Below, piece by piece: positions 13,696 to 35,427 of a DNA stretch of 64,000 nt. The position numbers and the translations under genes were made by a program. This DNA comes from Teichococcus aestuarii (lineage in GTDB: Bacteria > Pseudomonadota > Alphaproteobacteria > Acetobacterales > Acetobacteraceae), in contig NZ_PDOA01000019.1 in NCBI RefSeq assembly GCF_003116135.1, positions 1-64,000 on the forward strand. The letters run 5' to 3'. Each line of letters begins with the position of its first letter. Position 1 is the first letter of the stretch. The notes under the pieces were generated by a model, which ran no database searches, was not told the DNA's origin, and worked only from the letters and a program-made list of their open reading frames with translations.

Positions 13696-14600
13696 GCGGC
13701 AGCGAATCGCGTGACGGCCTCCTCTGGCGCATCCAGGGGCTGCTGCGGCGGCGCTCCGCCGAAAGCGTGCGCGACCAGGTGGAGGCCCTGGTCGAGGGCC
13801 GCGAGCACCACGAGCACCACGAGCATGACGGCCCGCCGCGCCCCGAGCTGGACGCGCAGGAGCGCGCCCTGCTGGCCAACGTGCTGAAGCTGCGCGGCAA
13901 GACCGCCAGCGACGTGATGGTGCCGCGCGCCGACATCGTCGCCATGCCGGAGGACCTGACGCTGGAGCAGGCCATCCGCCTGATCCAGCGCGAGGGCCAC
14001 AGCCGCTTCCCCGTCTACCGGGAGCAGCTCGACGAGATCGTCGGCATGGTCCACATCAAGGACGTGTTCGCCAGCGTCGGGCGCGAGGCGCCCTTCAGCA
14101 TGGCGGCGGTGCTGCGCAAGCCGCTCTTCGTCGTCCCCTCCATGCCGGTGCTCGACCTGCTGCTGCAGATGCGCCAGGCCCGCATGCACCTGGCGCTGGT
14201 GGTGGACGAGTATGGCGGCATCGACGGCCTCGTCACCATCGAGGACCTGGTCGAGACCATCACCGGCGACATCTCCGACGAGCACGACGAGGACATGCCG
14301 GCGCAGATCGTCGAGCGGACGGACGGGCTGATCGACCTCGATGCCCGCACCCCCATCGAGCTGTTCGAGCAGCGCCTCGGCACCATCCTCACCGAGGATG
14401 AGCGGGAGCAGGACATCGACACGGTGGGCGGGCTGGTCTTCACCCTCGCAGGCCGCGTGCCGGCCAAGGGGGAGCTGATCTCGCACTCCTCCGGCCTGGA
14501 GTTCCGCGTGCTGGACGCCGACCCGCGCCGCATCCGCCGCCTGCGCGTGCGCCGGCCCGGCAGCGGGAACGGCAGCGGCACGACGCAGGCGGCCGCCTGA
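13692..14600 (+). CDS. CorC/HlyC-family CBS-domain protein
   Basis: A 302-residue cytoplasmic protein with two CBS domains (residues about 70-190: VPRADIVAMPEDLTLEQAI, then VPSMPVLDLLLQMR...VDEYGGIDGLVTIEDLVE) and a C-terminal CorC_HlyC (transporter-associated) domain. Relatives are tied to Mg2+/Co2+ efflux or acid resistance; the lnt-linked form is often annotated as hemolysin-like or CorC. No N-terminal DUF21 membrane domain is present, so it is the short, soluble type. Its ATG overlaps the ybeY stop (ATGA). A His-rich patch (EHHEHHEHD) near residue 38 could bind metal, which is inference. Confidence 0.88.
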   Translation: MSGSESRDGLLWRIQGLLRRRSAESVRDQVEALVEGREHHEHHEHDGPPRPELDAQERALLANVLKLRGKTASDVMVPRADIVAMPEDLTLEQAIRLIQREGHSRFPVYREQLDEIVGMVHIKDVFASVGREAPFSMAAVLRKPLFVVPSMPVLDLLLQMRQARMHLALVVDEYGGIDGLVTIEDLVETITGDISDEHDEDMPAQIVERTDGLIDLDARTPIELFEQRLGTILTEDEREQDIDTVGGLVFTLAGRVPAKGELISHSSGLEFRVLDADPRRIRRLRVRRPGSGNGSGTTQAAA

Positions 14601-14608
14601 CCGGAACC

Positions 14609-14637
14609 GGGGGCGGCGTCTCTGGACCGCCGCCCCC
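14609..14637 (+). terminator. GC-rich hairpin between corC and lnt
   Basis: A perfect 10-bp stem (14609-14618 with 14628-14637) has a 9-nt loop. It lacks a U-tract, so it may only partly separate corC from lnt, whose start is 108 bp further on. Confidence 0.4.
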
Positions 14638-14744
14638 CCTCGCAGCCTGCCCCTTTGCGGCCGGTGCCTTGCCGTGGCGGCGCGCCGGGGTGAAACCCCG
14701 CGGGCCGCGGCCCCGCCGCCTCCTCTCCTGAGGTTCTCCCGCCC

Positions 14745-16283
14745 GTGCTGACACGCCTCTCCCGACTGAGCGGCCGGAAGGCCCTGTTCGCGGCCTTCGG
14801 CCTGGGCGCCCTGGGCGCCCTGGCCATGCCGCCGCTGCATCTGGTGCCGGTTCTGCTGCTGGCCGTGCCGGGGCTGCTCGCCCTGCTGGAGGGTGCCGGC
14901 TCGGCCCGGCGGGCGGCGCTGATAGGCTTCGCCTGGGGCTGGGGCCACCATGTCGTCGGCCTCTACTGGATCAGCCACGCCCTGCTGACCGACCCCTGGC
15001 GCTGGGGCTGGCTGGTGCCCATCGCCGTGCCGGGGCTGGCGCTGCCGCTGGCGCTCTACATCGCCCTGGCCGCGCTGGCCGCCTGGATGGCGCGGCCCGG
15101 CTGGCCCCGCTGGCTGGCCCTGGCCGGCGCCTGGACGCTGCTGGAGATGCTGCGCGGCGTGCTGTTCACCGGCTTCCCCTGGAACGCCATGGGCTCGGTC
15201 TGGGCCTTCCATCCCCTGCCGCTGCAGGCGGCCGCCTGGGTGGGGGTCTATGGCCTCTCGCTGCTGACGCTGCTGCTGGCCGGGCTGCCCTGGCCGGGCC
15301 GGCAGGCGCCCCGCCGGGCGCTGGCCGGGGGCGCGCTGGCGCTGCTGGCGCTGGGCGGACTCGGCGCCGCGCGCCTGGCCCGGCCCGCTCCGCCGGCGCA
15401 GGACGTGACCCTGATGCTGGTGCAGGGCAACATCCAGCAGGAGGCGAAGTGGCGCGAGGACCAGCGCTGGCCGATCTTCCGCCGCTACCTGGAGCTGACC
15501 CGCGAGGGCGCCGCCGCCCCGCCCCCGGCCGGGACGCCGGAAGGCCGCCCGCTGGCCGTCATCTGGCCGGAGACCGCCAGCCCCTTCCTGCTGCCGCAGG
15601 ACGAGGCGGCGCGCGGATACGTGGCGCAGGTGCTGCCGCCGGGCGGCGTGCTGCTGGCCGGCTCGGTGCGCGCCGAATGGCAGGGGGACGGCGCGCTGGG
15701 GCGGGTGTTCAACAGCCTCTCGGCCATCGACGCCAGCGGCACGCTGCGCGGCGTCTACGACAAGGTGCATCTGGTGCCCTTCGGCGAGTACATGCCCCTG
15801 CGCGGCCTGATCCCGATCCGCGTGGTGCAGGGCGGGCTGGACTTCTCGGCCGGGCCCGGGCCGGTCGCCCTGGCGCCCGCCGGCCTGCCGGCCTTCAGCC
15901 CCCTCATCTGCTACGAGGTGATCTTCCCCGGCGCCGTCACCCCGGCCGAGCGGCCGGCCTGGCTGCTCAACATCACCAACGACGCCTGGTTCGGATTCTC
16001 GGCCGGACCCTACCAGCACCTCGCCGCCGCGCGGCTGCGCGCGGTGGAGGAGGGGCTGCCCCTGGCACGGGCGGCGCAGACCGGAATCTCGGCTGTCTTC
16101 GGTGCGCGCGGAGAGGTGATCGCCTGGATCGGGCTGGGCCGGATGGGAACGCAGCAGGTTGCGCTGCCCGGCGCGCTACCGCCGACAATCTATGCGCGGC
16201 TTGGCAATTCCGGCGCGATCCTGATGGCGATCCTGGTTCTGGCGGTTGCAGCCGTTAGAAGCTCGTCTACAATCAGGCGATAA
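14745..16283 (+). CDS. lnt: Apolipoprotein N-acyltransferase Lnt
   Basis: Lnt transfers the third acyl chain to the N-terminal Cys of lipoproteins in the inner membrane. The 512-residue protein has six or so N-terminal membrane helices, a nitrilase-fold periplasmic domain and a C-terminal helix. The catalytic triad is complete: E276 (WPETASPFLL), K340 (DKVHLVPFGEY) and C389 (LICYEVIFPG), each within about nine residues of the E. coli positions. GTG 14745 is the start. It closes the conserved miaB-to-lnt operon. Confidence 0.95.
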   Translation: MLTRLSRLSGRKALFAAFGLGALGALAMPPLHLVPVLLLAVPGLLALLEGAGSARRAALIGFAWGWGHHVVGLYWISHALLTDPWRWGWLVPIAVPGLALPLALYIALAALAAWMARPGWPRWLALAGAWTLLEMLRGVLFTGFPWNAMGSVWAFHPLPLQAAAWVGVYGLSLLTLLLAGLPWPGRQAPRRALAGGALALLALGGLGAARLARPAPPAQDVTLMLVQGNIQQEAKWREDQRWPIFRRYLELTREGAAAPPPAGTPEGRPLAVIWPETASPFLLPQDEAARGYVAQVLPPGGVLLAGSVRAEWQGDGALGRVFNSLSAIDASGTLRGVYDKVHLVPFGEYMPLRGLIPIRVVQGGLDFSAGPGPVALAPAGLPAFSPLICYEVIFPGAVTPAERPAWLLNITNDAWFGFSAGPYQHLAAARLRAVEEGLPLARAAQTGISAVFGARGEVIAWIGLGRMGTQQVALPGALPPTIYARLGNSGAILMAILVLAVAAVRSSSTIRR

Positions 16284-24962: not shown

Positions 24963-25973
24963 ATGGCACGCTTCCTTGTTACGGGCGGGGCCGGCTATGT
25001 CGGCAGCCATGTGGTCCTCGCCCTTAAGGAGCGTGGTGATGACGTCGTCGTCATCGACGACCTGCGGCAGGGCCACCGCGCCGCCATTCCGGAAGGGGTG
25101 GAGCTGGTGGTGGCCGACCTCGCGGATCGCGCCCGGGTGGCCGATGTCCTCGCCGGCTGGAAGTTCGACGGTGTGCTGCACTTCGCGGCCCTCTCCCTGG
25201 TGGGAGAGAGCATGCGTGAGCCGCTGCGCTACATCACCGAGAACCTTTCCAACACGCTCGGCCTGGCCGATGCCGCCATCAAGGCGGGCTGCCAGCGCTT
25301 CGTGCTCTCCTCCACCGCCGCGCTGTTCGGCTTCCCCGAGCGGCTGCCGATCGACGAGGGCTGCCGCCTCGGCCCCGTCTCCGCCTATGGCGAGTCGAAG
25401 CTGATGGCGGAGCGCGGGCTGGAATGGGCGGAGCGGGTGCATGGCCTGCGCTCGGCCAGCCTGCGCTACTTCAATGCCGCCGGCGCCGACCCGCAGGGCC
25501 GGCTGGGCGAGGACCACAACCCCGAGACCCACCTCATCCCGCTGGCCATCAACGCCGCGCTGGGGCTCGGGCCGGAGCTGACCCTGTTCGGCACCGACTA
25601 CGACACCCCGGATGGCACCTGCATCCGCGACTATGTGCACGTGACCGACCTGGCGGACGCGCATCTGCGCGTGCTGGGCGTGCTGGAGCAGGGCCGCAGC
25701 GTCCGCTACAATGTCGGCAACGGCAGCGGCTACTCGGTGCGCGAGGTGATCGACACCGTGCAGCGCGTCACCGGCCGGCCGGTGCCCTACCGCACCGGCC
25801 CGCGGCGCCTGGGCGACCCGGCGGTGCTGGTAGCCTCCAACACCCTGCTGCGCGAGGAAACCGGCTGGACCCCGCAATACGCCGCGCTGGAGGACATCGT
25901 CCGCACCGCCTATGCCTGGCGCGCCGCCCATCCGCACGGCTTCGACGACAGCGCCCGCCCGGTGGCGGCCTGA
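24963..25973 (+). CDS. galE: UDP-glucose 4-epimerase
   Basis: An extended SDR enzyme of 336 residues interconverting UDP-glucose and UDP-galactose for surface polysaccharides. It has NAD-binding VTGGAGYVGSH, catalytic LSST and Y-x3-K in AYGESK, plus substrate-binding RYFNAAGADP and DYDTPDGTCIRDYVHV, the last a GalE hallmark. A promoter-like TTGACG lies at 24909-24914. It stands alone between xthA and the carotenoid operon and could provide sugar nucleotides, but a link to the carotenoid glycosyltransferase is speculative. Confidence 0.93.
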   Translation: MARFLVTGGAGYVGSHVVLALKERGDDVVVIDDLRQGHRAAIPEGVELVVADLADRARVADVLAGWKFDGVLHFAALSLVGESMREPLRYITENLSNTLGLADAAIKAGCQRFVLSSTAALFGFPERLPIDEGCRLGPVSAYGESKLMAERGLEWAERVHGLRSASLRYFNAAGADPQGRLGEDHNPETHLIPLAINAALGLGPELTLFGTDYDTPDGTCIRDYVHVTDLADAHLRVLGVLEQGRSVRYNVGNGSGYSVREVIDTVQRVTGRPVPYRTGPRRLGDPAVLVASNTLLREETGWTPQYAALEDIVRTAYAWRAAHPHGFDDSARPVAA

Positions 25974-26104: not shown

Positions 26105-27694
26105 ATGAACGCTTCCTTGCCCCTACCCACCTCGCCCGGTCCTGGACGCCCGGGCGGGCGCCCTCATGTCATCGTCATCGGCGCGGGGCCGGGCGGGCTG
26201 GCCGCGGCCATGCTGCTCGCGGCCCGCGGCGCCCGTGTCACATTGCTGGAGAAGGACGGGGTGGTGGGCGGCCGCAGCCGCACCCTGACGACGCCCGAGG
26301 GCTACCGATTCGACCTCGGCCCCACCTTCTTCCTCTACCCGCGCATCCTCGAGGAGATCTTCGCGAGCTGCGGCGCCGAGCTGCGGCGCGAGGTGGCGCT
26401 CACGCGGCTGGACCCGCAATACCGCCTGATCTTCGGCGGCGGCGCCGGCCCGGTGATCGACGCCACGCCCGACCTCGACCGCATGGCCGCCGAGATCGCC
26501 AAGATCGACCCGCTGGACGCCACCCGCCTGCGCGACTTCATGGTGCAGAACCGCAGCAAGCTGGAGGCCTTCCGCCCGGTGCTGGAGCGCGGCTTCTCCT
26601 CCGCCGCCGACCTGTTCGGCCTCGACATGCTGAAGGCGCTGCCGCACCTGCGGCCGCACCTCTCGGTGGACACGGAGCTGAAGCGCTACTTCCGCGACCC
26701 GCGCACCCGGCTGCTGTTCTCGTTCCAGAGCAAGTATCTGGGGATGAGCCCGTTCCGCTGCCCCAGCCTGTTCACCATCCTCTCCTTCCTGGAATACGAG
26801 CACGGCGTGTTCCACCCCGAGGGCGGCTGCGGCGCCGTGGCCACGGCCATGGCGCGGGTGGCCGAGCGGATGGGCGCCGAGATCCGCCTCGGCGCCCCGG
26901 TCGAGCGCGTGCTGTTCGAGGGCAGGCGCGCCACCGGCGTCGAGGTCGGCGGCGAGCGGCTGATGGCCGACGCGGTGGTGATGAACGCCGACTTCGCCCA
27001 TGCCGCGCCGAAGCTGATCCCGGATGCCCTGCGCCCGCGCTGGTCGGACGCGCATCTGGCGCGCGCGCGCTATTCCTGCTCCACCTTCATGCTCTATCTC
27101 GGCGTGGAGGGGCGCTTCCCCGAGATCGCGCACCACACCGTGCTGCTGGCCGAGGATTACCGGCGCAACCTGCAGGAGATCGAGACCGGACTGCTGCCGG
27201 GCGAGCCCTCCCTCTATCTGCACAACCCGGTGGCCACCGACCCTTCCATGGCGCCGCCGGGGCACAGCAGCCTCTATGTCTTGGTGCCGGTGGCCAACCT
27301 GCGCGGCACCATCGACTGGGCGACGCGCGCGCCGGAATTCCGCCGCATGGCGCTGCGGCGGCTGGCCACGCTCGGCCTGCCGGACATCGAATCCCGCATC
27401 CGCTATGAACGGATGGTGACGCCGCTGGAATGGCGCGACGAGTTCGCGGTGGGCTATGGCGCCACCTTCAACCTGGCGCATGATCTGGGCCAGATGCTCT
27501 GTTTCCGCCCCGGCAACCGCTTCGGCAGCACGGAGCGGCTCTATCTGGTGGGTGGCGGCACGCATCCGGGCAGCGGCCTGCCGGTGATCTACGAGGGCGC
27601 GCGCATCAGCGCCGACCTGTTGTCGCGCGACCTGGGGCTCGGCGGCATCGAGACGCGCCTGCCCATGGCGCAGGGAGAGGAGACGGTCGCATGA
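26105..27694 (+). CDS. CrtI/CrtN-type carotenoid (squalene/dehydrosqualene) desaturase
   Basis: A 529-residue FAD-dependent desaturase of the phytoene-desaturase family. The dinucleotide fold VIVIGAGPGGLAAAMLLAARG is followed by EKDGVVGGRSRT. The C-terminal FAD motif YLVGGGTHPGSGLPVIYEGARIS is complete. It opens a seven-gene operon with hpnCD and hpnE, so the likely substrate is squalene or another C30 polyene rather than phytoene; this is inference. ATG 26105 is used; ATG 26075 and TTG 26042 are also open. Neither has a strong ribosome site. The next gene overlaps by 4 nt. Confidence 0.85.
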   Translation: MNASLPLPTSPGPGRPGGRPHVIVIGAGPGGLAAAMLLAARGARVTLLEKDGVVGGRSRTLTTPEGYRFDLGPTFFLYPRILEEIFASCGAELRREVALTRLDPQYRLIFGGGAGPVIDATPDLDRMAAEIAKIDPLDATRLRDFMVQNRSKLEAFRPVLERGFSSAADLFGLDMLKALPHLRPHLSVDTELKRYFRDPRTRLLFSFQSKYLGMSPFRCPSLFTILSFLEYEHGVFHPEGGCGAVATAMARVAERMGAEIRLGAPVERVLFEGRRATGVEVGGERLMADAVVMNADFAHAAPKLIPDALRPRWSDAHLARARYSCSTFMLYLGVEGRFPEIAHHTVLLAEDYRRNLQEIETGLLPGEPSLYLHNPVATDPSMAPPGHSSLYVLVPVANLRGTIDWATRAPEFRRMALRRLATLGLPDIESRIRYERMVTPLEWRDEFAVGYGATFNLAHDLGQMLCFRPGNRFGSTERLYLVGGGTHPGSGLPVIYEGARISADLLSRDLGLGGIETRLPMAQGEETVA

Positions 27695-29274
27695 CGACGT
27701 CGCATGTTGTGGTGATCGGCTCCGGCCTGGGCGGGCTGTCGGCGGCGGCGGTGGCCGCGGCGCGTGGCCACCGGGTCACGCTGTTCGACAAGAACCCCTG
27801 GCTCGGCGGCAAGGCGGCGGTGCTGAACCTGCCCGGCGGCCCCGTGGGGTCCAACAGCGGCTTCCGCTTCGACATGGGCCCCACCATCCTGACCATGCCG
27901 CGCGTGCTGCGCCGCATCTTCGCCGAGGCCGGGCGGGACCAGGCGCAGGACCTGCCGCTGATCCGGCTCGACCCGCAATGGCGCTGCTTCTTCGAGGATG
28001 GCACGGCCATTGACCTGATGCAGGACGTGCCGGCCATGGCGGAGAGCATGAACCGCTTCGCCCCCGGCAATGGCGACGGCTACCGCCGCTTCCAGGACGT
28101 GGCCACCCACCTGCACGACGTCTCGGAGAAGTTCTTCTTCTGGAAATCGGTGGAAGGGATTGGCGACACGCTGGACTTCAAGGCCAACTTCCAGCCCGAC
28201 ACGCTGCGCGACGTGCTGGCGCTGCGCATGGGGCAGAGCGTGGCCAAGGTGATCCGCGGCCATGTGCCGGATGCGCGGCTGGCGCAGATGCTGGACCATT
28301 ACTGCCAGTATGTCGGCTCCTCCCCCTACCTCGCCCCCGCCGTGCTCTGCGGCATCGGCGACATGCAGGCGAGCGAGGGGGTGTGGTACCCGAAGGGCGG
28401 CACCCGTGCCGTGGCCGAGGGGCTGGCGAAGCTCGCCGCCGATCTCGGCGCCGACCTCCGCCCCGGCGTCGAGGTGACGGGGATGGACACGGAGGGCGGC
28501 CGGGTGCGCGCCGTCTTCGCGGGCGGCGAGCGGATCGCCTGCGACGCCGTCATCTCCAACATGGATGCCATCCGCACCTATGGGGAGCTGGTGGGCGGGG
28601 CGCCGGCCGCGAAGTACAGCCGGAAGAAGTACGAGCCGGCCTGCTCCGGCGTGGTGCTCTATCTGGGCCTCAACAGGCGCTACGAGCACCTGGCGCATCA
28701 CGACTTCATCTTCTCCCGCGACGCGGAGGAGGAGTTCGACGCCATCTACAAGAAGGGCATCCCCGCGCCGGACCCGACCGCCTACCTCGCCGCCCCCTCC
28801 GCCACCGACCCCTCCGTGGCGCCCGAGGGCGGCGAGGCGCTCTACGTGCTGGTGCACACCCCGCACCTGCGCCCGGGCCAGGACTGGAAGGCGATGCTGC
28901 CCGGCTACCGCCGCACCATCCTCGACAAGCTGAAGCGCACGGCGGGGATGGAGGATATCGAGGAGCGCATCGTGGTGGAGCAGGCGCTGACGCCGCAGGA
29001 CATCCACGAGCGCTACAAGGTGCTGGACGGCGCCATCTACGGCCTGGCCAGCCACGGGGTGTGGACCGGCGCCTTCAAGCCGGGCAACCGCTCCCGCGCG
29101 GTGAAGGGGCTCTACCTCGCCGGCGGCGCCGCGCATCCGGGGCCGGGGATGCCCATGGTGATGATGTCCGGCTGGATCGCCGCCGACGCGCTGGACCAGG
29201 ACCTCGGCGGGCGCGGCATGAGCGAGGCGGCACGCGCGGCGGGGCAGCGCGGGGTGCCGCTGGCGGCGGAATGA
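27691..29274 (+). CDS. CrtP/CrtN2-like carotenoid desaturase/terminal oxygenase
   Basis: A 527-residue second CrtI-family flavoprotein. It has the N-terminal VVVIGSGLGGLSAAAVAAARGH, FDKNPWLGGKA and the C-terminal GLYLAGGAAHPGPGMPMVMMSG. C30 carotenoid clusters typically pair a desaturase (CrtN) with a paralogue (CrtP/CrtNb) that oxidises the terminal methyl to an aldehyde. The aldehyde dehydrogenase at the end of this operon fits that role. Which of the two paralogues does which step cannot be settled by eye. ATG overlaps the previous stop (ATGA), and the next gene overlaps likewise. Confidence 0.83.
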   Translation: MTTSHVVVIGSGLGGLSAAAVAAARGHRVTLFDKNPWLGGKAAVLNLPGGPVGSNSGFRFDMGPTILTMPRVLRRIFAEAGRDQAQDLPLIRLDPQWRCFFEDGTAIDLMQDVPAMAESMNRFAPGNGDGYRRFQDVATHLHDVSEKFFFWKSVEGIGDTLDFKANFQPDTLRDVLALRMGQSVAKVIRGHVPDARLAQMLDHYCQYVGSSPYLAPAVLCGIGDMQASEGVWYPKGGTRAVAEGLAKLAADLGADLRPGVEVTGMDTEGGRVRAVFAGGERIACDAVISNMDAIRTYGELVGGAPAAKYSRKKYEPACSGVVLYLGLNRRYEHLAHHDFIFSRDAEEEFDAIYKKGIPAPDPTAYLAAPSATDPSVAPEGGEALYVLVHTPHLRPGQDWKAMLPGYRRTILDKLKRTAGMEDIEERIVVEQALTPQDIHERYKVLDGAIYGLASHGVWTGAFKPGNRSRAVKGLYLAGGAAHPGPGMPMVMMSGWIAADALDQDLGGRGMSEAARAAGQRGVPLAAE

Positions 29275-30095
29275 GCAGTTCCAGGCCGGGGCCGGAAGGG
29301 GCGCCGCCCCCTCCGGGCTCCCCCGCCGACCTGTATTCGGCGCCCCATATGCGGTTCTACCATTTCATGTTCGGCCGCTTCGCACGGCGCCACATGCGGG
29401 CGCTGCGGGTGGCGGAATGGGGGGTGCCGCAGCTTCCGCCGGGGCCGCTGGTGGTGTTCGCCAACCACCCCTCCTGGTGGGACGGGGTGGCCTTCATGCT
29501 GCTCTCCCGCAGTCTCTTCCCCGGCCGGCGCATGTTCATCCCGATGGAGGCGCAGGCCCTCGCCCGCTACGGCTTCATGCGCCGCCTCGGCGTGTTCGGG
29601 GTGGAGCAGGAGAGCGCGCGCGGCGCCGTGGCCTTCCTCCGCACCGCCACCCACGTGCTGGAACCAGGGCGGGACGACATGCTCTGGATGAACGCCCCCG
29701 GCCGCTTCGCCGATGCGCGGGAGCGGCCGGTGCCCATAGCACCCGGGCTGGTGCGGCTGCCGGAGCTGGCGCCGCACGCCACCTTCATCCCCCTGGCGCT
29801 GGAATACCCCTTCTGGAGCGAGCGCAAGGCGGAGATGCTGGCTGCCTTCGGCCCGCCCTTGTCAGGGGCGGAATTGCAGGCCATGCCTCGGGAGCAACGA
29901 CAGGCGGCGCTGGCCGGGGCGCTGGCCGGCACGATGGACCGCCTCGCCGGGGATGCCATCGCCCGCCGGCCGGAGGCGTTCCGCGTGGTGGCGCAGGGAG
30001 GGGAAGGCATGGGCGGCATCTACGATCTCTGGCGGCGCGGCCGCGCCCTGTTGCGCGGCCAGCGCTTCGACGCGCGGCACGACCGCCGCGCATGA
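29271..30095 (+). CDS. PlsC-type acyltransferase of the carotenoid operon (CrtO-like role)
   Basis: A 274-residue lysophospholipid-acyltransferase-fold enzyme. The catalytic block NHPSWWD is intact and FGVEQESARGA corresponds to block II. Block III is atypical: WMNAPGRFADARER stands where FPEGxR is usual, suggesting a non-phospholipid acceptor. Its position after two carotenoid desaturases and before a glycosyltransferase suggests that it acylates the sugar on a glycosylated carotenoic acid, the role CrtO plays in staphyloxanthin synthesis, though it is not homologous to CrtO. It overlaps both neighbours by 4 nt. Confidence 0.75.
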   Translation: MSSSRPGPEGAPPPPGSPADLYSAPHMRFYHFMFGRFARRHMRALRVAEWGVPQLPPGPLVVFANHPSWWDGVAFMLLSRSLFPGRRMFIPMEAQALARYGFMRRLGVFGVEQESARGAVAFLRTATHVLEPGRDDMLWMNAPGRFADARERPVPIAPGLVRLPELAPHATFIPLALEYPFWSERKAEMLAAFGPPLSGAELQAMPREQRQAALAGALAGTMDRLAGDAIARRPEAFRVVAQGGEGMGGIYDLWRRGRALLRGQRFDARHDRRA

Positions 30096-31210
30096 GCGCC
30101 GTGGCGAACGGGCTCGGCTGGGCCGCGCTGGGCCTGGCCGCCTTCCCTGCCCTGCTCGGCACGTTGAACCTGCGCCGGCTGCGCCGCCCGCGCGGCACCC
30201 CGCCCGGTCCCAGCCTCGTCTCCATCCTCATCCCGGCGCGGGACGAGGCGGCGCATATCGAGACCTGCGTCCGCGCCGCCCTGGCCAGCGAGGATGTGGC
30301 GGTCGAGGTGCTGGTGATGGACGATGGCAGCCAGGACGACACCGCCGCCATCGTCCGCGGCCTGATGAAGCGGGACCGCCGGCTGCGCCTGCTGCAGGCG
30401 CCGCCCCTGCCGCCGGGCTGGACCGGCAAGGTGCATGCCTGCGCCCGGCTCTCCGAGGCGGCGCGCGGCACCCACCTGCTGTTCATCGACGCCGATGTCC
30501 GCCTAGCCCCGCATGCCGCCGCCGCCCTGGCCGCCCATGCGGAGGATCACGAGATCGCCCTCGTCACCGGCGTGCCGCGGCAGGAGATCGGCTCCCTGGG
30601 CGAGGCGCTGACGGTGCCGGCCATCAACCTGATGATGCTGGGCTACCTGCCCGGCGGCGGCCGCGCCGGCAGCAGCCGCGCCTCGCTTGCCGCCGCCTGC
30701 GGCCAGCTCATCCTGGTGCAGGCGCCGGCCTATGCGGCGGTGGGCGGCCACGCCGCCGGCCCGAGCGTGCTGCATGACGGGCTGGCGCTGGCCCGCCGCC
30801 TGCGCGCGGGCGGCTTCCGCACCGAGGTGGTGGACGGCGCCCCGCTGGCGCGCTGCCGCATGTACCGGAGCTTCCGCGAGGGGTGGGAGGGCTTCCTGAA
30901 GAACGCGCGGGAGGGCATGGCCACGCCGCTCGGCCTGCCGGTCTGGACCGTGCTGCTGGGCGGCGCCCACCTGCTGCCCTGGCTGCTGCTGCCCTTCACC
31001 GCGCTGGCGCTGCCGGCGCTGCTGCTCTCGCTCGGCCTGCGCGCCGCCATCACCTGGCGGACGCGGGAGCCGTGGTGGACGGTGCCGCTGCATCCCGCCA
31101 CCGTGGCCGTGGCGCTGGGCATCCAGTGGTCGGCGCTGCTGGGCGGCTGGCTCGGCCGCCGCCCCGCCTGGAAGGGCCGCGCCTATGGCCCCGCCGGCCC
31201 CGCCACGTGA
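30092..31210 (+). CDS. GT2 family glycosyltransferase (CrtQ-like)
   Basis: A 372-residue membrane-bound GT2 enzyme. An N-terminal hydrophobic helix leads into VSILIPARDEAAHIE, EVLVMDDGSQDDTA and LLFIDADVRL (DxD). C-terminal hydrophobic segments (about residues 285-365) complete the CrtQ-like topology. In staphyloxanthin-type pathways CrtQ adds glucose to the C30 carotenoic acid. Context makes the same role likely. The acceptor-specificity motif QxxRW is absent; RSFREGWEGFLKNAREG occupies the equivalent position, as in CrtQ relatives. ATG overlaps the previous stop. Confidence 0.82.
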   Translation: MSAVANGLGWAALGLAAFPALLGTLNLRRLRRPRGTPPGPSLVSILIPARDEAAHIETCVRAALASEDVAVEVLVMDDGSQDDTAAIVRGLMKRDRRLRLLQAPPLPPGWTGKVHACARLSEAARGTHLLFIDADVRLAPHAAAALAAHAEDHEIALVTGVPRQEIGSLGEALTVPAINLMMLGYLPGGGRAGSSRASLAAACGQLILVQAPAYAAVGGHAAGPSVLHDGLALARRLRAGGFRTEVVDGAPLARCRMYRSFREGWEGFLKNAREGMATPLGLPVWTVLLGGAHLLPWLLLPFTALALPALLLSLGLRAAITWRTREPWWTVPLHPATVAVALGIQWSALLGGWLGRRPAWKGRAYGPAGPAT

Positions 31211-31235
31211 AGCCTCATCGCGTGACGTGCCCGGC

Positions 31236-32900
31236 ATGAGTGCCGCCCCCGCCGCCGAGGTGCTGGCCGGCCCGCCGACGCGCGGCCCGGGCTCGGAGAA
31301 CTTTCCCGTCGCCTCCTGGCTGCTGGCGTCGGCGCTGCGCCGCCCGGTGCTGGCCTTCTACCATTTCGTCCGCGCCGCCGACGACATTGCCGACCACCCG
31401 GAGCTGCCGCCGGAGGAGAAGCTCGCCCGCCTCGCCCGGCTGGAGGCGGCGCTGGACGACCCGGCCGCGTCCCTGCCCCTGGCCCGCGCCCTGCACGAGA
31501 GCGGCGCCGGCACGGCCGAGGCGCGGCGGATGCTCTCCGCCTTCCGCCAGGACGCCACACAGCGCCGCTATGCCAGCTGGGCGGCGCTGGAGGATTACTG
31601 CGCCCGCTCCGCCGCCCCCGTGGGCCGGCTGCTGCTGCGGCTGCATGGCGAGACGGACCCGGAGGCGCTGGCCGGCGCCGAGTCGCTCGCCGCCGCATTG
31701 CAGATCCTGAACCACCTGCAGGATCTGGGCCCCGACCGCGCGGCGCTGGACCGCGTCTACCTGCCGCAGGACTGGATGGCCCTGGCCGGCGGCGAGGACG
31801 CCTTCTTCACCGACGCCGCCGCCCGTGCCCCCGTGCTGCTCACCGCGCTGGACCGGGTGGAGGCGATGCTGGACCGCGCCGCCCGCCTGCCGCGCCGCCT
31901 GGAAAGCCGCCGCCTGGCGCTGGAATCGGCGGTGACGCTGCACCTCGCCCGCCGCCTGCTGGCGCGGCTGCGCGCGGCGGACCCGCTGGCGGGGCGCGTG
32001 GCGCTCTCCCGCGCCGACATGGCCGCCGCCCTGCTCGCCGCCCTCCGCCTCGGCGCCCCCCGCCTTGGCGCCCCCCGGCTCGGCACCGACGACGCGGCGC
32101 TGGTGCGGGCGCGGGTGAAGCGCGCCCGCTCCTCCTTCGCGCGCGGCATGGCGGCCACGCACGGCCCGGCGCGGCGCGCGCTCTACGCCGTCTATGCCTT
32201 CTGCCGCGCGGTGGACGACATCGCCGACGGCACCATGCCCGAGGCCGACAAGCGCGCTGGCCTGGCCGAATGGCGCGGCAAGCTGGAGCGGCCGGACTGC
32301 CCGCTCTCGCGCGAGCTGGCCTGGGCACGGGACGCCTTCGCCCTGCCGCTGGCCGAGTGCCACGCCATGATCGACGGCATGGAGGCCGATGCCGGCCCCA
32401 GCCGCCGCATCGCCGACCGCGCGGCGCTCGACCTCTACTGCCGGCAGGTGGCGGGCAGCGTCGGCGCGCTCGCGGTGCGGATCTTCGGCGCGCCGGAGGC
32501 CGAGGCCTACGGGCTGGCGCTGGGCCATGCCTTCCAGCTCGTCAACGTGCTGCGGGACATCGACGAGGACGCGCTGCGCGAGCGTGTCTACCTGCCGCTC
32601 TCCGACCTCGCCGTCGCCGGCATCCCGCCCGATGCCACCGCCGCCGCGCTGGTGGCCGATCCGCGCCTGCCGGGGGTGGCGGCGGCGCTGGCCGAGCGCG
32701 CCGAGGCCGCCTTCGCCGAAGCCGATGCGCGGATGCCCCCCGGCCGGGCACGCGAACTGAAGCCGGCGCGGCTGATGCTGCTGGGCTATCACGCGTTGCT
32801 GCGGCGGATGCGCGCCCAGGGCTTCGCCCCGCCGCGCCGCCGCCCGCGCCTGGGCCGGGCGGAGAAGCTGGCGGTGGCGCTGCAGGCGCTGCGGCCGTGA
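31236..32900 (+). CDS. HpnC-HpnD fusion protein (squalene synthesis from farnesyl diphosphate)
   Basis: A 554-residue fusion of two trans-isoprenyl-diphosphate-synthase-fold domains normally encoded by adjacent genes. Residues 20-270 are HpnC-like: SENFPVASWLL, first Asp motif D49-D50-x-x-D53, then NHLQDLGPD. Residues 285-554 are HpnD-like: AFCRAVDDIADG (D327/D328) and LVNVLRDIDED (441-445). HpnD condenses FPP to presqualene diphosphate and HpnC converts that to hydroxysqualene. A threefold RLGAP repeat (residues 271-283) joins the halves. The start ATG 31236 lies 25 bp past the glycosyltransferase stop. HpnE follows with a GTGA overlap, so the squalene route is complete. Confidence 0.85.
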   Translation: MSAAPAAEVLAGPPTRGPGSENFPVASWLLASALRRPVLAFYHFVRAADDIADHPELPPEEKLARLARLEAALDDPAASLPLARALHESGAGTAEARRMLSAFRQDATQRRYASWAALEDYCARSAAPVGRLLLRLHGETDPEALAGAESLAAALQILNHLQDLGPDRAALDRVYLPQDWMALAGGEDAFFTDAAARAPVLLTALDRVEAMLDRAARLPRRLESRRLALESAVTLHLARRLLARLRAADPLAGRVALSRADMAAALLAALRLGAPRLGAPRLGTDDAALVRARVKRARSSFARGMAATHGPARRALYAVYAFCRAVDDIADGTMPEADKRAGLAEWRGKLERPDCPLSRELAWARDAFALPLAECHAMIDGMEADAGPSRRIADRAALDLYCRQVAGSVGALAVRIFGAPEAEAYGLALGHAFQLVNVLRDIDEDALRERVYLPLSDLAVAGIPPDATAAALVADPRLPGVAAALAERAEAAFAEADARMPPGRARELKPARLMLLGYHALLRRMRAQGFAPPRRRPRLGRAEKLAVALQALRP

Positions 32901-34141
32901 GCGGTGCCCCCGCCACCCATGTGGTGGGCGCGGGCGTGGCGGGGCTGGCTGCGGCCTGGGCGCTTTCAAGCCAGGGCCGCCGCGTGGTGCTGCACGAGGC
33001 CACGCCCGCCGCCGGCGGCCGCGCCCGCGCCCTGCCGGACGGCACCGACAACGGCACCCACGCACTGCTCGGCGCCAACCCGGCGGCGCTGCGCTTCCTG
33101 GCGGAGATCGGCGCCCGCACCGGCTGGGTGGAGCCGGAGCCGGACCGGCTGCCGGTGCTGGACCTGGAGAGCGGCGCCCTGTGGCGCGTCTCGCTCTCGC
33201 CGCTCGGCTGGTGGCGGAAGGCGGCCCGTCCGCCGGGGCTGGACGCCGCCGGGCTGCTGGCGCTGCTGGGGGCCGCCCGGCCGGGCCGCCGCGTCACGGT
33301 GTCGGAGGCCTTCGCCCGCCATCCGGTGCTGCTGCGCGGCTTCGTCGAGCCGCTGACCCTGGCGGCGCTGAACACCGTGCCGGCGGAGGCCGGGCTGCGC
33401 CGCCTCGGCGCCGTGCTGCGCCGCATGGGCCGCCCAGGTGCCTGCCGGCTCTATGTGGCGCGCGAGGGGCTGGGGCCCGACCTCGTGCAGCCCGCGCTGG
33501 CGGCGCTGGCGGCGCGCGGCGTGGAGATCCGCCCGGGCGACCGCCTGCGCGCGCTGACGGTGGAGGGCGGCCGCGCCACGGCCCTGCACTTCTCTAGCGG
33601 CACGCGGCCGGTGGAGGCGGGGGTGGTGCTGGCCACCCCGCCCTGGGAGAGCGCCCGGCTGCTGCCCGGGCTGCGCGTGCCGGATCGCCACGCGCCGATC
33701 CTGAACCTGCACTACGCCCATGCCAGCGGGGCGGGGCCGCGCTTCCTCGGCCTGCTGGGCGGCGTCGGCCAATGGGTGCTGGTGCGCCCCGGCGCCGTGG
33801 CGGTGACGGTGAGCGCCGCCGCCGCCGTGCTGGAGACGCCGCTTGAGGTGCTGGCGGAACGCGTCTGGCGGGAGGTGCGCCGCGCCGCCCTGGCCGCCCG
33901 TTTGCCCGGCGCCTGGCCCGAGGCCCCCCCCGCTTGGCGCGCGGTGAAGGAGCAGCGCGCGACGCCCCTGCACACGCCGGACCAGCCCGCCCCGCCGCCC
34001 CTGCTGCCCCTGCCCAACCTGGCCCTGGCCGGGGACTGGATGGAGCCGCTCCTGCCCGCCACCATCGAGGCCGCCACCCGCTCCGGCCTGCGCGCCGCGG
34101 CCGCCCTGGCGCGCGCCCTCCCGAAAGCCGCCGCCCGATGA
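32897..34141 (+). CDS. hpnE: Hydroxysqualene dehydroxylase HpnE
   Basis: A 414-residue FAD-dependent amine-oxidase-fold enzyme that reduces hydroxysqualene to squalene. It begins THVVGAGVAGLAAAWALSSQGRRVVLHEATPAAGGRAR with the dinucleotide-binding motif. NGTHALLGANPAALRFLAEIG and EPLTLAALNTVPAEAG are characteristic HpnE stretches. LALAGDWMEPLLPATIEAATRSG closes the FAD site. GTG 32897 overlaps the hpnCD stop by 4 nt, and its own stop overlaps the next ATG. Normally hpnCDE sits with shc and hopanoid genes; here it is embedded in a carotenoid operon. Confidence 0.88.
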   Translation: MSGAPATHVVGAGVAGLAAAWALSSQGRRVVLHEATPAAGGRARALPDGTDNGTHALLGANPAALRFLAEIGARTGWVEPEPDRLPVLDLESGALWRVSLSPLGWWRKAARPPGLDAAGLLALLGAARPGRRVTVSEAFARHPVLLRGFVEPLTLAALNTVPAEAGLRRLGAVLRRMGRPGACRLYVAREGLGPDLVQPALAALAARGVEIRPGDRLRALTVEGGRATALHFSSGTRPVEAGVVLATPPWESARLLPGLRVPDRHAPILNLHYAHASGAGPRFLGLLGGVGQWVLVRPGAVAVTVSAAAAVLETPLEVLAERVWREVRRAALAARLPGAWPEAPPAWRAVKEQRATPLHTPDQPAPPPLLPLPNLALAGDWMEPLLPATIEAATRSGLRAAAALARALPKAAAR

Positions 34142-35427
34142 CCGACACACCCGCCGCCGCCCTCGCCGCCCTGCGCGCCGAGACGCAGCGCCCCACCCTC
34201 CGCGAGCGCCGCGCCCTGCTGGCCGCGCTGGCGCGGGAGGTGCTGCGCCGCGCCGAGGATTTCGCCGCCGCCGCCGATGCCGATTATGGCGGCCGCTCCA
34301 CGGTGGAGACGCTGGTGGCCGATGTGCTGCTGGTGGCGCAGGCGGCGCGGCGGGCGCGGCGCTGGCTGTGGTGGTGGGCGATGCCGCGCCCGGTGCTGGC
34401 GCCCTTCCCGTTCCAGCCGGCGCTGGCCTGGGTGGAGCCGGTGCCGAAGGGCGTGGTGGGGGTGATGGCGCCCTGGAACTACCCCATCCAGCTCGGGCTG
34501 TGGCCGCTGGCCGAGGCCATCGCCGCCGGCAACCGCGTGGTGCTGAAGCCGAGCGAGCACACCCCCCGCACCGCCGCACTGCTGGCCGAGGTGGTGGCGG
34601 CAGCCCTCGGCCCGCGCATGGCGCGCGTGGTGCAGGGCGATGCCGCGGTGGCCGCCGACTTCGCCGCGCAGCCCTGGGACCACCTGGTGTTCACCGGCGG
34701 CACCGGCATCGGCCGCGCGGTGATGCGCGCGGCGGCGGAGAACCTGACGCCGCTGACGCTGGAACTCGGCGGCAAGTGCCCCGTGCTGGTGCTGCCGGGC
34801 GCCGACCTGCCCCGCGCCGCCCGCGCCATCCTGGCCGGCAAGGCGGTGAATGCCGGGCAGACCTGCGTGGCGCCCGACACGGTGCTGCTGGTCGGCCACA
34901 CGGCCGAGGCCTTCGCCGCCGCCTGCCGCGCCGCCGCCGTGCCGGTGGAGACCGCCGTGGCCCCCGCGCAGCGCATCCGGCAGGCGGCGCTGGCCAAGGA
35001 GGGCGAGGCATTGCCCGGCGGAATCGTGCTGGTGGCCGATGACAGCGCCGAGGAGCTGTTCGGCCCGGCGCTGGCGCTGCGCGCGGTGCCGGATCTCGCG
35101 GCGGCGATTGGCTGGGTCCGGGCGCGGCCGGCGCCGCTGGCGCTCTACCTGTTCGGCGCCAGCCGGGCGGAGGCCGCCGCCGTGGCCGCCGGCACCCGCG
35201 CCGGCGCGCTGGTGGAGGAGCGCTGCGTGGAGCACGCCGCCTTCACCGCCCTGCCCTTCGGCGGCGTCGGCGCCTCGGGCTTCGGGCGCTACCATGGCCG
35301 GGCGGGGTTCGAGAGCTTCAGCGACCTGCGCGGGCGGGTGCGGCACGGCCCCTTCGCGCTCGCACGGATGTTCGACCCGCCGCGCAGCGCGCGGGTGCGG
35401 AAGCTGGCGCGGCAGTTGCTCCGCTGA
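34138..35427 (+). CDS. Aldehyde dehydrogenase of the carotenoid operon (carotenal to carotenoic acid)
   Basis: A 429-residue NAD(P)-dependent aldehyde dehydrogenase of the coniferyl-aldehyde-dehydrogenase subgroup. It shows MAPWNYPIQLGL, the catalytic Glu in LTLELGGKCPV and the catalytic Cys in NAGQTCVAPD, with PFGGVGASGFGRYHG near the C-terminus. At about 430 residues it is shorter than the usual 470-500, losing part of the N-terminal and mid region. In C30 pathways an equivalent enzyme (AldH, Ald of Methylomonas) oxidises the terminal aldehyde made by CrtP. It closes the operon and overlaps hpnE by 4 nt. Confidence 0.85.
   Translation: MTDTPAAALAALRAETQRPTLRERRALLAALAREVLRRAEDFAAAADADYGGRSTVETLVADVLLVAQAARRARRWLWWWAMPRPVLAPFPFQPALAWVEPVPKGVVGVMAPWNYPIQLGLWPLAEAIAAGNRVVLKPSEHTPRTAALLAEVVAAALGPRMARVVQGDAAVAADFAAQPWDHLVFTGGTGIGRAVMRAAAENLTPLTLELGGKCPVLVLPGADLPRAARAILAGKAVNAGQTCVAPDTVLLVGHTAEAFAAACRAAAVPVETAVAPAQRIRQAALAKEGEALPGGIVLVADDSAEELFGPALALRAVPDLAAAIGWVRARPAPLALYLFGASRAEAAAVAAGTRAGALVEERCVEHAAFTALPFGGVGASGFGRYHGRAGFESFSDLRGRVRHGPFALARMFDPPRSARVRKLARQLLR

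Follow-up and report, generated by a model that had tools for sequence, protein, structure and literature searches.

How does the alphaproteobacterium Teichococcus aestuarii obtain the backbone of its carotenoid, and does a single locus take that backbone to a finished pigment? The question is raised by a run of genes at positions 26105–35427 of a 64,000-nucleotide stretch of contig NZ_PDOA01000019.1 (hereafter the window), which a sequence-only reading had proposed to be a complete squalene-route C30 carotenoid operon. Having weighed the alternatives, we regard this proposal as very probably correct. The chemistry as such is not new, having been demonstrated experimentally in Azospirillum brasilense and Methylobacterium extorquens AM1 (PMC13274349; PMC10448405). 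What the present analysis adds is the packing of the steps into a single conserved operon, a synthase whose fused form unites one clade with a copy on a Microvirga plasmid, and, within one genus, a complementary division of hpnCD and hpnE over the pigment and the hopanoid loci. A text search of the literature returned no paper joining 'Acetobacteraceae' with 'C30 carotenoid'; its coverage being incomplete, the operon may already have been published.

The gene run and its predicted product

The segment holds seven intact open reading frames, all on the + strand, in a genome of 5.2 Mb in 106 contigs that is 99.95% complete. Five of the six junctions are 4-nt overlaps, as the sequence-only reading had described, and the sixth is a 25-nt gap before hpnCD. 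An upstream in-frame ATG at 31185 would turn this gap into a 26-nt overlap, but judged by the N-termini of its closest relatives a start at 31236 is preferable. Starts were refined from junctions and relatives (e.g., the glycosyltransferase start, 30092, from its ATGA overlap), the family scans having been run from other starts for the glycosyltransferase (30095), hpnCD (31185) and hpnE (32891).

The first two genes, crtN (26105–27694) and crtP (27691–29274), are of the CrtI family (TIGR02734, 502.5 and 408 bits, respectively) and would code for a C30 desaturase and a C30 terminal oxidase. They are followed by a proposed carotenoid-glycoside acyltransferase (29271–30095), whose sole Pfam match at E ≤ 0.001 is PF01553, and a proposed carotenoid glycosyltransferase of the GT2 family (30092–31210; PF00535, 63.2 bits), whose best NCBIfam matches, CruG and HpnB, are both far below their cut-offs. 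Next come a gene joining HpnC (hydroxysqualene synthase) and HpnD (presqualene diphosphate synthase; 31236–32900), hpnE for hydroxysqualene dehydroxylase (32897–34141, with a GTG start), and aldH (34138–35427; PF00171, 211.9 bits), an aldehyde dehydrogenase that we propose acts on the C30 terminal aldehyde(s). All the enzyme families listed by the sequence-only reading are hence present, with the correction that HpnC and HpnD are not separate proteins but halves of one continuous chain. The HpnC half scores 331.6 bits (model positions 6–266 of 267; cut-off 250.45) and the HpnD half 331.2 bits (positions 2–264 of 267; cut-off 278.6), with the aspartate motifs kept in both. An AlphaFold2 model built with 24 relatives (mean predicted local distance difference test score, pLDDT, 89.2; predicted template modelling score, pTM, 0.88) retrieves dehydrosqualene synthases, squalene synthases and HpnC in a fold search, each spanning about half of it.

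The distinction between CrtN and CrtP follows from comparison with a plasmid-borne A. brasilense cluster of the order aldH (− strand), crtI-family, crtI-family, acyltransferase, glycosyltransferase, DUF2141. The operon's first gene shares 60% identity with the first crtI-family gene of that cluster and 36% with the second; for the operon's second gene the values are 65% with the second and 32% with the first. The Microvirga ossetica cluster (64% for crtN to its first and 70% for crtP to its second crtI-family gene) and a Gluconobacter cluster give the same pairing, and the Gram-positive reference Cytobacillus yields only 36% versus 29%, one of that record's two matches having been compared. 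As the plasmid compared comes from a strain other than Sp7, whose cluster has been named crtNPOQ, the naming relies on the order of genes given in that published name. It also places crtP ahead of the acyltransferase and glycosyltransferase genes, the same grouping as is reported for crtP in AM1. The acyltransferase is 45% identical to its A. brasilense and 47% to its M. ossetica counterpart, its relatives being annotated as lysophospholipid acyltransferases like the AM1 enzyme, and the glycosyltransferase 52% and 56%, respectively. A DUF2141 gene lies directly 3' of the glycosyltransferase in both the Azospirillum and the Gluconobacter carotenoid clusters (L163 and L164).

Work on relatives suggests the following route for these enzymes. 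Two molecules of farnesyl diphosphate would be condensed by HpnD, the C-terminal half of the fusion, to presqualene diphosphate, which HpnC, the N-terminal half, would convert to hydroxysqualene, with HpnE then reducing this to squalene; these steps are said to have been established by Pan et al. in 2015. From squalene, CrtN would form a coloured C30 polyene by desaturation, CrtP would oxidise one or both of its terminal methyls to aldehydes and AldH would take the aldehyde(s) on to carboxylic acid(s), to which the glycosyltransferase would attach a sugar as an ester, with the PF01553 enzyme finally acylating the sugar. An acyl-glycosyl ester of the 4,4'-diapolycopenoic or dioic acid type is the most probable end product, most likely serving as a membrane pigment and antioxidant; its sugar, its acyl chain and its mono- or diacid state are presumptive. 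A full path from farnesyl diphosphate to an acylated, glycosylated C30 carotenoic acid, as first claimed for the window, is thus predicted from the gene families, from the lack of a rival synthase and from the related loci in A. brasilense.

Among known systems, A. brasilense Sp7 offers the same enzyme set (hpnCDE with crtNPOQ/aldH); deletion of either hpnCDE or crtNPOQ abolishes its carotenoid, and squalene accumulates in the crtNPOQ deletion (PMC13274349). The plasmid of the other A. brasilense strain carries both crtI-family genes, the acyltransferase and the glycosyltransferase in the window's order. However, hpnCDE of A. brasilense stands at a separate locus, and its aldH is divergent and only about 33% identical to that of the window. 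AM1, compared by description, has HpnCDE, CrtN, CrtP, a glycosyltransferase and a lysophospholipid-type acyltransferase, the roles of the last two having been shown by deletion, and its product is 4-[2-O-11Z-octadecenoyl-glucopyranosyl]-4,4'-diapolycopenedioic acid (PMC10448405). Unlike in the window, its genes occupy more than one locus, its hpnCDE is clustered with the squalene-hopene cyclase (SHC) gene and its AldH is reported as unidentified. The closest arrangement is on the M. ossetica plasmid NZ_CP016619.1 (L165), where crtN, crtP, acyltransferase, GT2, a fused HpnCD (about 50% identical), HpnE and aldH occur together; that cluster, known from its genes alone, differs in its divergent aldH and its extra methyltransferase and ispH genes. 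Methylomonas likewise combines C30 carotenoid genes and squalene as the proposed precursor with the absence of crtM, but it has a single squalene synthase beside SHC and no hpnCDE (PMC10745290).

The sequence-only reading had likened the locus to staphyloxanthin biosynthesis (crtOPQMN with aldH). The pathway logic stands, with a C30 backbone, desaturation, terminal oxidation, glycosylation and acylation in staphyloxanthin synthesis and as predicted here. Yet HpnCDE takes the place of CrtM in the window. In AM1 no CrtO homologue was found and the acyltransferase is of the lysophospholipid type (PMC10448405). The acyltransferase of the window matches PF01553, with its lysophospholipid-type relatives, so that the resemblance is one of analogy and the nearest experimental systems are those of Azospirillum and Methylobacterium.

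Source of the predicted C30 backbone

The two CrtI-family genes could instead serve a C40 route of the lycopene or spirilloxanthin type, with HpnCDE making squalene for other uses. The models that match both genes are named after phytoene desaturases, their plasmid-borne relatives are annotated crtI, and in Muricoccus roseus, a relative from the Roseomonas group, antiSMASH reported crtB, crtI and crtX (PMC12798031). We asked what else in the genome could supply a backbone. Besides the two halves of the fusion, PF00494 (SQS_PSY) matches a single protein, on contig 106 (5430–6410, − strand), which scores 80 bits with the HpnD model (cut-off 278.6), 26 with HpnC (250.45) and 22 with CrtB (480). 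In an alignment it lacks both of the aspartate-rich motifs kept by the fusion halves and the reference sequences, and it is probably non-catalytic and related to NDUFAF6, a mitochondrial assembly factor. In this group it could be misannotated as crtB.

By PF00494, the NCBIfam cut-offs and the motif alignment, then, the genome holds no CrtB or CrtM with catalytic motifs; nor does it contain a photosynthetic reaction centre (PF00124), or a CrtI-family gene above the TIGR02734 cut-off beyond the operon's two. On these grounds we rejected a C40 pathway. Moreover, no SHC was found as an alternative sink for squalene, and the related genes of A. brasilense act on squalene (PMC13274349), making a C40 role for the desaturases very improbable. 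The claims that no separate crtB or crtM serves the desaturases, and that HpnCDE stands in for CrtM, both withstood this search. A practical corollary is that CrtI-family and SQS_PSY matches in Roseomonas-type genomes should not be taken for C40 genes unchecked.

Conservation of the operon and of its fused synthase

In a sample of 80 named loci, hpnCD is at least 60% identical to that of the window in 31, the nearest being that of Pseudoroseomonas rhizosphaerae (86–90% identity); the other 49, many of them beside SHC, reach at most 53%. Nineteen of the 31 show all seven genes in identical order on one strand, six end at a contig or locus edge (L040, L044, L045, L049, L053 and L063), and six are variants, lacking hpnE (L036 and L037) or an aldH match (L038, L054 and L062) or consisting of hpnCD–hpnE alone (L048). 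The row of genes is not a product of chance: its order is kept in many Roseomonas-type relatives. A UDP-glucose 4-epimerase gene (24963–25973) was rejected as a member, as 131 nt separate its end from crtN and it is found (E ≤ 1e-30) in six loci, all from close kin. In a Rubellimicrobium locus (L097), separate hpnC, hpnD and hpnE genes adjoin a divergent crtN–crtP–acyltransferase–glycosyltransferase cluster.

The association extends across the family. Counting as fused-type those matches of at least 59% identity (two being partial at contig ends, and four spanning matches at 39–45% being excluded), 65 of 299 Acetobacteraceae genomes have a fused-type HpnCD, and 62 of these also hold CrtP at E ≤ 1e-100; CrtP occurs without the fused type in 37.

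Both synthase domains (at least 200 amino acids each, on one strand) were recovered from 90 loci, in 43 of which they are fused in frame. On a quick tree, with the window added and one duplicate omitted, 38 fused rows with carotenoid genes and four without them in the available stretch form one clade, with a support of 100 in the Shimodaira–Hasegawa-like approximate likelihood ratio test (SH-aLRT); the copy on the Microvirga plasmid belongs to this clade, separate HpnC or HpnD proteins do not, and one further fused row (G001, beside SHC) is placed elsewhere. A wider tree, to which 13 loci of other families were added and from which 17 rows were dropped (13 near-identical fused and four separate), retains the Acetobacteraceae-plus-Microvirga clade (29 rows, support 99) within a larger group that is fused throughout (35 rows, support 87). 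On that tree the fused or separate label requires five changes, four of them being forced by well-supported branches. In a class-level search of 385 genomes, 15, own included, match at E ≤ 1e-80; of 13 such loci examined, 11 are in-frame fusions, two of these beside a CrtP-like gene, and among loci of other families fusions also lie next to SHC.

The fusion is hence a recurrent one, given the five label changes and its presence in other families, and we rejected the notion that it is a unique novelty; fused HpnCD was already published, in a study of hopanoid genes, from Acidobacteria SD2, some Actinobacteria and Rhodospirillum centenum, there in a hopanoid context (PMC5462960). An assembly artefact was likewise rejected, all 31 named relatives being fused in frame over the aligned stretch. 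One TAA is listed within the match from genome G231; at the corresponding locus, L143, the frame stays open throughout the aligned fusion, with a stop immediately behind it. In two genomes of another alphaproteobacterial family (G312 and G444; loci L178 and L179), a single CrtP-like gene (44–48%) precedes fused hpnCD–hpnE, with a divergent aldehyde dehydrogenase gene; this smaller pigment operon may lead to a different product. Within the fused HpnCD, the intermediate might be channelled.

Several points weigh against a complete, self-contained pigment operon. HpnE aligns with TIGR03467 over its length, yet at 251.8 bits it falls short of the equivalog cut-off of 283.05, and the acyltransferase scarcely exceeds its Pfam threshold (25.3 bits against 23). 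HpnE is the sole full-length HpnE-like match in the genome; after it comes an N-terminal piece of 38.7 bits. Three of the 65 fused-type genomes lack CrtP at the above threshold. A single transcript would follow from the overlaps and the synteny; promoter-like sites number zero (shuffled mean 0.2) and terminator-like sites two (shuffled mean 2.0), none above background. With the genome in 106 contigs, the absences described could in principle be gaps, and the exact pigment of this strain is a prediction from its genes. For the AldH step we know of no experimental orthologue. In AM1 the deletion of two AldH candidates was without effect (PMC10448405).

For this last step the operon may itself be instructive: the aldehyde dehydrogenase is co-conserved with the other genes (22 of the 31 named loci) and 49% identical to that of the M. 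ossetica carotenoid cluster, making its family a candidate for the activity unidentified in AM1. Five records of a plasmid collection match it at E ≤ 1e-40, none of them from Methylobacterium, whose chromosomes were not searched by name. More generally, the operon is predicted to carry, on a single DNA segment, all that leads from farnesyl diphosphate to a decorated C30 pigment, which would be useful for heterologous production.

Pigment and hopanoid gene sets in the genus

Could the squalene-forming genes be a hopanoid module that was displaced and lies in a carotenoid operon only by accident? HpnC–HpnD fusions do occur beside SHC, as noted above, and in 23 SHC-bearing genomes of the family the fused copy is, among the at most four candidates scored per genome, the only HpnC/HpnD match, so that it probably also feeds hopanoid synthesis there. 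SHC is, however, matched in the window's genome neither by TIGR01507, under whose cut-off 14 of 14 controls also fell, nor by PF13249, which matches SHC in 259 of the 299 family genomes (258 over its cut-off); PF13249 finds none in the nearest relative, G293, either. A hopanoid operon was rejected on this account, and with CrtP accompanying the fused copies in 62 of 65 genomes we consider a displaced module very unlikely. The carotenoid is then the only outlet for squalene seen in this genome, and the supply would be, as far as that genome shows, for carotenoid only. Across the family, SHC is absent from 19 of the 65 fused-type genomes (present in 46) versus 21 of the 234 others; it is missing more often among the former, the counts coming from related lineages with kinship ignored. 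Three genomes (G047, G127 and G177) combine an operon-type fused HpnCD and SHC with no CrtP at E ≤ 1e-100, possibly having kept the fused synthase for hopanoids alone.

A comparison of eight genomes of the genus throws further light on the two gene sets. The complete operon is present in the window's genome (G000) and in G293, neither of which gives an SHC match. In P. coralli and Roseomonas sp. E05 (G162 and G205), the fused hpnCD is in the pigment operon and the only full-length hpnE is beside SHC. G016 has crtN–crtP–acyltransferase–glycosyltransferase–hpnE–aldH without hpnCD, together with SHC and two HpnC/HpnD-type matches elsewhere in the genome (best E 3.3e-53), the operon hpnE (249 bits) being the only full-length HpnE found. 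In G107 and G269, hpnE is of the hopanoid type and lies beside SHC, and CrtP goes unmatched; G239 yields nothing for CrtP, SHC or HpnC/HpnD under the thresholds applied. Thus, the pigment and hopanoid sets are placed complementarily, hpnE or hpnCD being absent from the operon where the hopanoid set supplies it, and SHC going unmatched where the operon is whole. The pattern suggests that two overlapping sets once coexisted and then lost genes in a complementary fashion. In another genus, three genomes (G102, G159 and G236) have a crtN–crtP–acyltransferase–glycosyltransferase–aldH cluster without hpn genes.

The same genomes bear on whether HpnE makes squalene at all. For the HpnEs encoded in the operons of G000, G293 and G016 the scores lie near 250 bits, against 392–401 for the hopanoid-locus HpnEs of the genus, and hpnE is missing from the operon in two of the 31 named relatives; the desaturase might then use hydroxysqualene directly, with the diverged HpnE performing another step, such as an extra desaturation. 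But the two relatives lacking it keep a canonical hpnE beside SHC, and G016, an SHC-bearing genome, has the operon-type HpnE only, which suggests that the diverged enzyme does make squalene. Taken together, these cases suggest that the two HpnE types are interchangeable, and a direct use of hydroxysqualene has little to commend it, being only marginally less improbable than the C40 and hopanoid alternatives. We retain HpnE as the probable squalene-forming enzyme of a C30 pathway.

A bolder scenario is that the pigment operon of this genus captured the whole squalene-synthase set, that the hopanoid pathway was then lost, that an acylated, glycosylated C30 carotenoid took over the membrane-ordering role of the hopanoids, and that HpnD hands presqualene diphosphate directly to HpnC within one chain; we offer this conjunction as a speculation, doubtful but worth entertaining. 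The genus contains natural variants, in which both pathways, split gene sets, the pigment pathway alone or neither pathway is present, so that it becomes testable if carotenoids of this kind can stand in for hopanoids in the membrane. Finally, hpnC and hpnD are also found at 13769–15444 of a 431-kb Roseomonas marmotae plasmid (NZ_CP061094.1), a location that could make such genes easily lost in the group.

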